From Bacteroidota bacterium (GTDB lineage Bacteria > Bacteroidota > Ignavibacteria > Kryptoniales > JAKASW01): DNA of 64,000 nucleotides. Where the stretch lies: NCBI GenBank assembly GCA_021825585.1, contig JAKAGT010000020.1, forward strand, positions 1 to 64,000, read 5' to 3'. This document shows positions 49,840 to 53,112 of this stretch, piece by piece. A model generated the notes under the pieces. It had not been told where the DNA came from and did no database searches. It saw only the letters and a list, made by a program, of their open reading frames with translations. The position numbers and the translations under genes are program-made. Numbering within the stretch: position 1 is the first letter of the stretch; every line of letters starts with the position of its first letter.

Positions 49840-50877
49840 TCAGTGTTTCAAATAGTAAGCTGCTGACAGCCAGCCGCACCAGTGCTTGTAAGATGCCGGT
49901 GCGGTTGTGCCCATTCCTGTGCCTTTGAGCGGAAGCACGCCCTCGGTGTACGAATCTGAGTATCGCAGCAACTTTCCTGTAAGCTGTTCGCCGGTCACCT
50001 TGCTTATTATCTTCTCCGATGTCAGCAAGCCGAACGGTATCGAAAACTTTCCGCACCAGACAATATCTTTCAACTGAACCGTCAGGTCACGCACCTTGTC
50101 CGGGCTCACAACTCCTTCCAGATCCTCGTGCGCTATCCTCCTGTCGTTTGCCGTGGCTTTTTCATGAGCCCTGGCATCTTCGCCGTAAGGAGAGTTGTTG
50201 AAATCATCTCCATAATGATCGGCATCGGAAGAGATGAGGAAGGCGATATCTTTTCCGATTACAAGGTGATTTTCATCTGCGTATTTCGCGATTACAGCGG
50301 ACAACTTGCCGGAAATTTCGTCCATCCTTGCGAAAGGCATCTGCGTCACCATGATCGGCGTAATCTCTATATTCGGATTGAAATACTGCAGGAAAGGGAG
50401 GAGTGCTTCGATGGAGTGCTCCAACGCATGAGCTTTGTCGCTAACGATAAAAGTGGATGTATCGAGATGAGCTTTGATGTAATCTCTGAGCGGAGATATC
50501 CCGACAGCATGTCCCAGGCCTGGCCAATCTGCGTAGTGATCCATTATCAGTATGTTGCGGGGGTCACCGATTTGTTTTCTAACATCGCTGTGCGTGACTC
50601 CGAAGATCACGACCTGTTTTGCCCGGAGAACGCGATAAAGTGGATAATAGACCCTTGCTGCATACATGTAATCGTCATGCGGCGAAATCGCGGCGACAAT
50701 ACCGGACGGGGCTGCCGGAGCCTTCTCATTTTTCTTCAGATAGTTGACAAACCGTTCCATCTGGTGTTTGTCCCAACAGAAGCCGATATTATCCCGGACT
50801 GGTTTCGTCCCCTGAGCGAGAAGACCGGCGGCGCTTAAGAAAACGAATAGACCTACCGCAGCTATGGCACGATTCAT
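49840..50877 (-). CDS. Exported MEMO-family protein
   Basis: 345 residues with an N-terminal signal peptide (about 1-22, ending GLLAQ). The MEMO fold is shown by I-S-P-H-D-D-Y-M-Y (usual P-H-A-G-Y-x-Y), H-A-L-E-H-S-I-E-A-L-L-P-F-L-Q, and I-S-S-D-A-D-H-Y-G (usual S-S-D-x-S-H-Y). The metal-site histidines are kept but neighbouring residues differ. MEMO proteins are normally cytoplasmic and, in bacteria, part of the AmmeMemoRadiSam set with AMMECR1 and a radical-SAM protein; here neither partner is present and the protein is exported. GGAGGGTAT precedes the ATG at 50877. It runs divergently from the cysteine leader. Confidence 0.8.
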   Translation of the reverse strand: MNRAIAAVGLFVFLSAAGLLAQGTKPVRDNIGFCWDKHQMERFVNYLKKNEKAPAAPSGIVAAISPHDDYMYAARVYYPLYRVLRAKQVVIFGVTHSDVRKQIGDPRNILIMDHYADWPGLGHAVGISPLRDYIKAHLDTSTFIVSDKAHALEHSIEALLPFLQYFNPNIEITPIMVTQMPFARMDEISGKLSAVIAKYADENHLVIGKDIAFLISSDADHYGDDFNNSPYGEDARAHEKATANDRRIAHEDLEGVVSPDKVRDLTVQLKDIVWCGKFSIPFGLLTSEKIISKVTGEQLTGKLLRYSDSYTEGVLPLKGTGMGTTAPASYKHWCGWLSAAYYLKH

Positions 50878-51014
50878 ATACCCTCCGATATTTCGATAAA
50901 TGTACAATAGGCAGCTGTAATTTGAAACTCTGCAACCGAGGCCGGTGAGGAAGCGGTTGTTTAGGTTGATTGCACAAATCGCCGGCCTTCGACCAAAACC
51001 ACGGGGATTACGCT

Positions 51015-51179
51015 ATGGTGAAACTTGATATGGTGGGGCCACGTTACTATCTTTTAAACGAGATGATGGAAGCAGAGCCCCTTACGCAGAACGAGAAGAC
51101 GATTGTCTGCAGGTTTTGTTGTTGTACCTGTGCCGATGGATCCGCGCGGTTTTCGCGAAGGGACGAATGTATCGGTTAG
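51015..51179 (+). CDS. Cysteine-rich leader peptide upstream of cysE-cysK
   Basis: 54 codons, ending TAG at 51177-51179. Codons 32-39 read C-R-F-C-C-C-T-C (51108-51131), that is five Cys in eight codons, with a sixth Cys near the end. No domain is recognisable. It is followed 29 bases later by an intrinsic terminator and then by cysE. This is the layout of a leader peptide in translation-controlled attenuation, with cysteine as the amino acid sensed. Start choice: ATG at 51015 after ACGGGGATT; a TTG at 50970 in the same frame is an alternative and would not alter the Cys cluster. A genuine small Cys-rich protein is the other possibility. Confidence 0.65.
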   Translation: MVKLDMVGPRYYLLNEMMEAEPLTQNEKTIVCRFCCCTCADGSARFSRRDECIG

Positions 51180-51240
51180 ATTGATACCTAACAGAAAGAA
51201 TTTCGGAGGCCCTTCGTTGAGAACCAGCGAAGGGCTTTTT
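51145..51240 (+). terminator. Attenuator: competing arm and intrinsic terminator before cysE
   Basis: Terminator: GCCCTTCG (51209-51216) pairs with CGAAGGGC (51228-51235), extended by TTG/CAG to 11 bp with a five-base loop, then TTTTTGTTT. Competing arm: CGAAGGG (51156-51162), inside the leader's last codons, is an identical copy of the 3' arm and can pair with CCCTTCG (51210-51216), which would destroy the terminator. A small stem, CGCG/CGCG (51145-51148, 51154-51157), overlaps that arm. A ribosome stalled at the Cys codons would leave the arm free; one at the stop codon would cover it. Confidence 0.7.
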
Positions 51241-51301
51241 GTTTGAATGGACAGAATGAAAGATCGTGTCTCAAGGATGTAAAGAATAGAAAGTCTGTAA
51301 A

Positions 51302-52162
51302 ATGAACCAAAGCATTACTGACGAAGGGATCGCGCAGTTGGCCGAGGCCCTGCTGCTGAAGCATGAAACTCACGGATTTACACTCCCGATCAAGGCGGAG
51401 ACTCAGCGCTTTGCTGACGAGATCATCAAGTGTCTTTTTCCGTCGCTTTCCGAGGAGACTTATTTCACACAGGAGGAGATACGCGCGAGGCTATCGCTGC
51501 TCCAGCGCAATGTCAAGGCTATCCTTCGCCTGCTCCCGCTGAAATCAGGAGCTTCCGCAGACGAGACCGCGGAGGAGTTTTTTTGCAAGCTCCCGGAGAT
51601 TCACAGGAAGCTCTGGATGGATGCGGAGGCTATCAATCGCGGGGACCCTGCTTCGGAAAGTGTCGAGGAGGTGGTACTGGCATATCCCGGTTTTCTTGCG
51701 ATTGCCATCTACCGCATAGCACATGAGTTCTATCTTCTCGGTGTTCCGATTCTGCCGAGGCTGCTGACAGAATATGCCCATCAGCTCACAGGGATAGACA
51801 TTCATCCCGGCGCTCGGATCGGGACTCCGTTTTTCATCGACCACGGCACCGGTATAGTTATCGGGGAGACGACGGTCATCGGCGACAATGTGAAGTTGTA
51901 TCAGGGAGTCACTCTCGGTGCACTGAGCGTCGACAAGTCTCTTGCAAACACCAAGCGGCATCCGACCATAGAAGATAATGTAATTATCTACGCCCAGGCT
52001 GTGATACTTGGCGGTGATACCGTAGTCGGTCACAATAGTATCATAGGTGGCAACTCCTGGCTGACGAAATCCGTCCCACCTTATTCTTTCGTGTATCACG
52101 AGACGAAAGTTAATGTCCGGACGCCGGACGAAACTAACGGCGGAATAGACTATGTCATTTGA
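51302..52162 (+). CDS. cysE: Serine O-acetyltransferase CysE
   Basis: 286 residues. It forms O-acetylserine from serine and acetyl-CoA, the rate-setting step of cysteine synthesis. The N-terminal 150 residues are helical. The C-terminal part is a left-handed beta-helix of hexapeptide repeats: I-D-I-H-P-G-A-R-I-G-T-P-F-F-I-D-H-G-T-G-I-V-I-G-E-T-T-V-I-G-D-N-V, with the catalytic Asp and His in F-I-D-H-G-T-G. It is the first structural gene after the cysteine leader and attenuator, 35 bases before cysK. The length fits the longer SAT class with an extended N-terminus. Confidence 0.95.
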   Translation: MNQSITDEGIAQLAEALLLKHETHGFTLPIKAETQRFADEIIKCLFPSLSEETYFTQEEIRARLSLLQRNVKAILRLLPLKSGASADETAEEFFCKLPEIHRKLWMDAEAINRGDPASESVEEVVLAYPGFLAIAIYRIAHEFYLLGVPILPRLLTEYAHQLTGIDIHPGARIGTPFFIDHGTGIVIGETTVIGDNVKLYQGVTLGALSVDKSLANTKRHPTIEDNVIIYAQAVILGGDTVVGHNSIIGGNSWLTKSVPPYSFVYHETKVNVRTPDETNGGIDYVI

Positions 52163-52197: not shown

Positions 52198-53112
52198 ATG
52201 AAGTTTAATTCCATCCTGGAAACAGTCGGCAACACGCCGCACGTCAAGATTAACCGCTTATATCCGTCGGGCGTCAACGTCTGGATGAAATTAGAGCGGG
52301 CAAACCCTGGAGGGAGCATCAAAGACAGAATAGCCCTGACGATGATAGAAGATGCTGAACGGCGAGGCGTTCTAAAGTCGAACAGCGTGATTATTGAGCC
52401 GACGTCAGGAAATACCGGCATCGGGCTCGCGATGGTTGCGGCAGTGAAGGGGTACAAACTGATACTCGTGATGCCGGAATCAATGTCGATGGAAAGGCGG
52501 AGGATACTTTCGGCATATGGGGCGAAGCTGGAGCTTACACCCAGAGAGAAGGGGATGAAGGGTGCTATTGAGCGTGCCGAGGAGCTCGTCAAGAAAACGC
52601 CGCACGCGTGGATTCCTCAACAATTCGAAAACCCCTCGAACATCGAAGCTCATGAGCGGACTACCGCCCAGGAGATCTTTAGTGATTTTCCCGATGGAGT
52701 CGATTATCTCGTCACGGGGGTCGGAACGGGCGGCCACATTACCGGGTGCGCGAACGTCTTGAAGAAGAAATTCCCGAGGACAAAGGTCTTCGCGGTCGAG
52801 CCTGCGTTGTCGCCGGTGATAAGCGGTGGCGCTCCGGGGCCTCATCCGCTCCAGGGAATCGGCGCAGGCTTTGTGCCGAAGAACCTTCACACTGATGTGC
52901 TCGACGGAGTAATACAGGTTTCAAACGAAGAGGCATTTGAGTATGCCGTTCGTGCAGCAAAGGAGGAAGGAATACTTGTCGGCATTTCGTCCGGAGCGTC
53001 GCTGGCGGCGGTCGCGAAGAAACTTCCCGAAATACCGGCCGGGAGCACGGTACTCACTTTCTGCTACGATACCGGCGAGCGGTACCTATCGGTCGAAGGA
53101 CTATTTAAATAG
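52198..53112 (+). CDS. cysK: Cysteine synthase CysK (O-acetylserine sulfhydrylase)
   Basis: 304 residues. A PLP enzyme that replaces the acetyl group of O-acetylserine with sulfide. The Schiff-base Lys is in [22 protein letters not shown] is the substrate loop, and [10 protein letters not shown] binds the PLP phosphate. G-A-G-F-V-P marks the conserved later segment. AGAGGAG precedes the ATG. It works directly with CysE from the same transcript. The gene converges with the M1 peptidase gene; no terminator is evident in the 22-base gap. Confidence 0.96.

Follow-up and report, generated by a model that had tools for sequence, protein, structure and literature searches.

How the two cysteine-making genes cysE and cysK are switched on, and whether the Cys-rich reading frame and the hairpin lying just before them are parts of the switch, is the question raised by positions 51015-51240 of the window, as we call here the whole stretch of 64,000 nucleotides that was analysed, from an uncultured bacterium of the Ignavibacteria. 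The sequence-only reading had taken these parts for a trp/his-style attenuator, a view now supported by further copies of the element, by its conservation, by covariation of its arms and by the genes with which it is associated. We consider it very probable (roughly 0.88) that the element acts on cysE-cysK as a ribosome-mediated transcription attenuator responsive to cysteine.

Anatomy of the leader and its alternative folds

All parts of the element lie on the forward strand, upstream of two genes for which family models agree with their early assignment to cysteine synthesis. The product of cysE (51302-52162, serine O-acetyltransferase) scores above the cut-off of NCBIfam NF041874 and matches TIGR01172 with an E value of 4e-49, yet below that model's cut-off, and that of cysK (52198-53112, cysteine synthase A) reaches 410 bits with TIGR01139, above its cut-off. 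The upstream neighbour (49840-50907) is divergent, and therefore a forward-strand terminator in this position serves only a transcript begun within the intergenic region and not that gene. A scan of 50800-51400 against all 4227 families of Rfam gave no match near the gathering score.

The frame originally described, 54 codons from an ATG at 51015 to the stop at 51177-51179, is present in the sequence and in the list of open reading frames, with five Cys codons in eight at 51108-51131. Its start was not upheld, as the ATG at 51015 lies upstream of the conserved position of the promoter. Sequence scanning and comparison with related loci place a putative promoter at 51025-51053 (-35 TTGATA at 51025-51030, 17-nt spacer, -10 TATCTT at 51048-51053). 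Related loci mostly carry TTGACA-17-TATCTT (or TAACTT), with the -10 box ending 8-13 nt short of the leader ATG; 86% of 36 loci reach a promoter score of at least 10 of 12, in comparison with 7.5% of shuffles. Since the promoter of the window fits this pattern (its -35 box and its arm 2 depart slightly from the family) and ends 9 nt before the ATG at 51063, the translated leader probably starts there, or at 51066. The resulting ORF would be almost leaderless, with 38 codons (51063-51179, MMEAEPLTQNEKTIVCRFCCCTCADGSARFSRRDECIG and the stop), within the range of 22-47 amino acids found across 37 related loci, and the run CRFCCCTC, the predicted sensor, would occupy its codons 16-23. Some 20-45 nt ahead of the leader promoter, several loci share a further conserved string, TTGACAATTTAGAATTTT, which could be a protein-binding site (L002 and L003, reverse strand about 1290-1315; L061; L246).

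Downstream of the leader, the hairpin at 51209-51240 was found as first described: GCCCTTCGTTG-agaac-CAGCGAAGGGC, an 11-bp stem (51209-51219 with 51225-51235) closed by the loop AGAAC and followed by TTTTT at 51236-51240, with a folding energy of -18.8 kcal/mol and the features of an intrinsic terminator. A simple terminator scan missed it, and every other analysis shows it. The competing arm, arm 2 (GGTTTTCGCGAAGGG, 51148-51162), lies inside the leader ORF and ends 14 nt before its stop; it includes the CGAAGGG of 51156-51162, which together with the CCCTTCG of 51210-51216 had already been read as a pair. In that reading the competing helix, of 7-8 bp against 11 bp for the terminator, was the weak point. 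The helix is actually longer: arm 2 is predicted to pair with 51210-51225 (arm 3), which comprises the loop of the terminator besides its 5' arm, in a duplex of 15 bp with one bulge and -23.9 kcal/mol, unmatched by any of 200 shuffles. Forced folds of 51144-51235 gave -32.7 kcal/mol for the antiterminator and -31.3 kcal/mol for the terminator, and with the two being about equally stable the weak point falls away. In a transcript reaching only 51226, where arm 4 has not yet been made, the antiterminator is the only possible fold (-28.5 kcal/mol), whereas inclusion of the U-run lets the terminator (-35.5 kcal/mol) beat the antiterminator (-32.7 kcal/mol). These energies are equilibrium values, and the near-balance that they show is what would be expected if the switch depended on which event comes first. 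Between both arms, the fold of the window sequence alone shows an intermediate stem (51164-51205) that includes the small hairpin at 51175-51192, stacked within the antiterminator as had been suggested.

According to the proposed mechanism, transcription would begin beside the ATG at 51063, and a ribosome would translate the 38-codon leader close behind the RNA polymerase. A shortage of Cys-tRNA would stall this ribosome in the Cys run at 51108-51131, leaving arm 2 free to pair with 51210-51225, terminator loop included, once this segment has emerged, so that no terminator would form and cysE-cysK would be transcribed. With ample Cys-tRNA, the ribosome would go on to the stop codon at 51177-51179 and cover or pass arm 2 in its 3' part, and formation of the terminator at 51209-51240 would follow. 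By its standard footprint, a ribosome halted at the stop codon reaches no more than about 3 nt into the 3' end of arm 2 (which ends -1 to 16 nt before the stop across the 37 loci), and full masking thus needs either a protector hairpin or a moving ribosome. In this regard, folding of 51144-51240 reveals a possible protector, CGCG-GUUUU-CGCG at 51145-51157, in which a portion of arm 2 would be hidden, and either this hairpin or the passage of the ribosome may contribute to the off state.

Copies, relatives and re-coded versions

A search of the genome's own assembly with 51000-51280 returned two more sites, both holding the whole element, with leaders MITSTSSRTNKACAACACCCCICMMGSLCFREGVGP and MNKFTLLRKPGIQMTCACCCCICMMTASVSRRCESLG, each ending at a stop. 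In the alignments, both paralogs have TTTCGCGAAGG in common, as well as a terminator of the form CCCTTCGTTGAAAACC(A/G)ACGAAGGGCTTTT. One precedes an operon of sir (a gene of the sulfite/nitrite reductase family), cysH, an unassigned gene, a fused cysC/sat, cysG and cysM; the other precedes sir, cysG, cysM and a moeB/moeZ-type gene. The three copies thus place three operons for cysteine synthesis or sulfate assimilation under one kind of leader. A fourth and weaker candidate (L303, G000:C48:7716-7852), whose leader ends in ATCCRPCMRITCSHSEDYS before the stop, precedes an OsmC-family gene.

A model built from the genome's three copies (R1) matched at full length in 9 of the genus's 13 genomes and, beyond the genus, in several further families of the class. 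In the genome collection these relatives bear the names Ignavibacteria and Melioribacteraceae, and most of what is known of the lineage comes from metagenome assemblies. The genus has nine closely related sir genes, spread over eight genomes, and the element immediately precedes every one of them; in the four genomes of the genus that lack the element, a sir of this kind is missing too. The cysE of genome G005, the closest relative of the window cysE (81% identical), lacks the element, which is present there before sir. When loci were read one by one, Cys leaders were found to precede sir, cysE, cysK and cysH, also in other families. The sequence-only reading had pointed to recurrence of the Cys cluster and the CGAAGGG arm in relatives as a check, and both the Cys run and a CGAAGG arm do recur in the two paralogs and in relatives, where they precede cysteine or sulfur-assimilation genes. 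The Cys codons, CACCCC(I/T)C, occupy the same place in the leaders of both paralogs and of relatives, the distance from sensor to arm is nearly constant, and 25-39 nt separate the leader stop from the terminator in 37 loci. The leaders differ by indels, and therefore the frame of the conserved string TTTTCGCGAAGG varies, being read as CFREG, VSRR or FSRR by locus, and the peptide after the Cys run is not conserved; as these are also the frames of arm 2, selection is on the RNA and not on the peptide. A second model (R2) was run over the phylum, but its matches outside the class were mostly generic terminators, with real elements told by their uORFs and not by their scores, and for this reason no count is claimed from it.

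An unbiased view came from the cysE upstream regions of the class, gathered by protein search only, where a uORF counted as Cys-rich if it had four or more Cys among eight codons and lay no further than about 500 nt upstream. Such a uORF precedes 25 of 84 cysE genes; dinucleotide shuffles gave 2 of 1,680 and the reverse strands 1 of 84. Of 70 cysE regions taken from named genomes, some in the class and some not, 18 have one (5 of 1,400 shuffles, no reverse strand), the next-best residue reaching 6 regions. Terminators were seen by eye outside Ignavibacteria as well, in the Bacteroidota loci L108, L138, L147 and L163 and in the Chloroflexota-labelled L109, L115 and L118. The cysE genes of the latter three have a leader beginning MLAVHVCCICCSDGTC and a strong GGGGCAAAG/CTTTGCCCC terminator, and these are probably an independent Cys attenuator. 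Many other cysE genes of the class (L228, L229, L187, L177, L195 and others) have poly-Cys leaders in which the run ends at or near the stop codon, as in NCCCCLCCCCSFQA; cysE follows 70-100 nt later without a terminator being obvious in between, and these leaders are possibly a second type in the class, under translational or Rho-dependent control.

The same layout is found with other codons. Leaders of metY (O-acetylhomoserine sulfhydrylase) have Met together with Cys codons, such as SMMMCMM or CCCCMMM, and leaders of trpE have Trp codons (NWAWWWY). That the codons match the pathway in each case (Cys, Met/Cys, Trp) argues strongly for the codon run as the sensor. The metY loci L076, L077, L081, L083, L086, L254 and L261, with Met or Met/Cys runs (for example MKFFVKNNIFLKNLHSMMMCMMLFISKG) and a similar terminator, are probable methionine/cysteine attenuators, and the trpE loci L080, L244, L245, L247, L253, L255 and L259, with NWAWWWYIY and variants followed by terminators, are probable trp attenuators of Ignavibacteria. 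Just downstream of three metY Met/Cys leaders there is a SAM (S-box) riboswitch, Rfam RF00162 (L250:376-503, L257:351-469, L083:1673-1798), which would put two sensors in series; L288, L293 and L301, outside the class, look alike by eye. Tandem attenuators before a single gene (metY or cysH) were observed in L304, L305 and L306 and also in G355:C39 (L246, L072), and in other families of the phylum Met/Cys or Cys leaders (L298, L299, L284) precede a metN-like ABC transporter gene and cysK-like genes.

The chances are about even that a single scaffold, namely a nearly leaderless ORF with sensor codons, an arm pairing with both stem and loop of the terminator and a AAGCCCTTC-type terminator, has been repeatedly re-coded within Ignavibacteria and in other Bacteroidota to Cys, Met/Cys or Trp, and used singly, as a tandem or coupled in series to a SAM riboswitch, which would make codon-sensing attenuation a main control of sulfur amino-acid synthesis in the phylum. 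As the sensor is legible in the sequence, it predicts the specificity (Cys, Met or Trp) of the genes under its control and marks sulfur-assimilation operons in uncultured genomes. Moreover, re-coded copies of the scaffold offer a natural test of how an attenuator changes its specificity, and the tandem or riboswitch-coupled versions allow the study of the logic between charged tRNA and SAM.

Covariation of the arms and other explanations

Pairing between the arms was analysed in 37 loci of the Cys, Met/Cys and Trp types (30 Cys and Met/Cys, 7 Trp), leaving out L246, the second element of G355, for its degenerate leader frame. In 28 of the 37, the upstream arm pairs with the terminator arm better than in 95% of dinucleotide shuffles (p<0.05). 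For the 30 Cys and Met/Cys loci, the true pairs of arms 2 and 3 sum to -504 kcal/mol, in comparison with -424 (sd 11) when arms are swapped between loci; none of 20,000 permutations was as good, and again none of 20,000 after thinning to 21 loci, although shared ancestry is only partly removed in this test, as in the pair counts below. The seven Trp loci alone, which are similar to one another, gave no swap signal. In 16 loci of the Cys type, 8 of the 15 antiterminator pairs are changed on both sides, a number found in 2 of 500 shuffles and the best among all slides, and six of these eight fall in the part of the helix that uses the terminator loop. In the terminator stem of the same 16 loci, 95.5% of cells are paired, with both-side changes in 10 cells where 4.0 were expected (0 of 500 shuffles). 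A permutation restricted to the apical arm does not count here as main evidence, since the native pairing had served to choose its anchor. The arms therefore covary in relatives, as the initial attenuator proposal had asked to be checked.

These data bear directly on the other ways in which the locus can be explained. The Cys leader could act, in the way proposed for the Cys uORFs of mycobacteria, on the translation of what lies downstream or on termination by Rho, with the hairpin being a constitutive or unrelated terminator. The many poly-Cys leaders before cysE in which no terminator is obvious indicate that a terminator-free mode probably exists in the class. In the window and its homologs, however, the terminator is kept at a fixed distance and covaries, loop included, with the upstream arm, and the divergent upstream gene leaves it no other transcript to end, making this explanation improbable for the element under study. 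It is very improbable that the terminated leader is a trans-acting small RNA, either alone or besides attenuation: leader peptides such as peTrpL can act in trans (PMC7298713), and three near-identical terminators in one genome could have common targets, but the covariation of the arms is accounted for by attenuation in cis.

More improbable still is a functional Cys-rich peptide, for example one binding metal or thiols, with the RNA structure being incidental. Five clustered Cys could bind a metal and the run is conserved in position, but nothing is conserved beyond it, the downstream part lies in differing frames by locus, and Met or Trp replaces Cys according to the pathway in leaders that are always upstream of the pathway genes. 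A chance juxtaposition of a Cys-rich frame and an ordinary terminator comes close to being negligible: the phylum has many terminators of the AAGCCCTTC...GAAGGGCTTTT type, as weak matches indicate, but chance does not fit with three copies in the genome, with the enrichment of Cys-rich uORFs before cysE or with the covariation of the arms.

Comparison with known attenuators

In the trp and his attenuators of enterobacteria, a leader ORF with codons for the product of the pathway and mutually exclusive antiterminator and terminator hairpins stand directly before the biosynthetic operon. The present element resembles them in its product-codon leader, its exclusive hairpins and its position, whereas it differs in its Cys codons, in an antiterminator arm within the leader ORF, in a nearly leaderless start and in that copies of one scaffold stand before several distinct operons in a single genome. 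For mycobacteria, Canestrari et al. reportedly described Cys-rich uORFs before cys operons in 2020. The early remark that mycobacteria have such uORFs agrees with the prediction of uORFs of this kind before their cys genes (PMC4633059); in Actinobacteria they were predicted before cys genes with no conserved terminators (PMC1262725), and in M. smegmatis the regulation was described as translation attenuation (PMC13236596). These uORFs are like the window leader in being leaderless or nearly so, with clustered Cys and a position before cysteine genes, but they have no conserved terminator, whereas the family of the window keeps both terminator and antiterminator and for this reason does not belong to the mycobacterial type.

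In the same phylum, attenuation by leader peptides has been suggested before amino-acid operons of Flavobacterium psychrophilum, with structured 5' elements upstream of, for instance, pheA and hisG, and the main text of that work names no cysteine case (PMC9723704). Attenuator-like short ORFs have likewise been suggested in Bacteroides thetaiotaomicron (PMC7366714). The sequence-only reading, which knew of no such attenuator in the FCB group, does not hold for attenuation in general, given what has been suggested for F. psychrophilum (PMC9723704), whereas it stands for cysteine: in the open-access literature we found neither a description of Cys attenuators upstream of the sulfate-assimilation genes of Ignavibacteria or Bacteroidota nor any gene-regulation study of codon-sensing attenuation in Ignavibacteria.

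Very few attenuators are known that sense cysteine and have a conserved terminator. The uORFC-8-2 motif, found before cysS of Rhodobacterales, is predicted to be a ribosome-mediated attenuator with Cys codons and a U-run terminator (PMC8632094), and by its description it is like the element of the window. It differs in preceding a tRNA synthetase gene, in having two tandem Cys codons near positions 14-15 and in being confined to Alphaproteobacteria (PMC8632094), whereas the window element lies before cysE-cysK with five Cys codons at positions 16-23. Altogether, the predicted mechanism is of a known kind, and the family of Cys attenuators, as a regulon of sulfate assimilation in Ignavibacteria and Bacteroidota, appears to be new.
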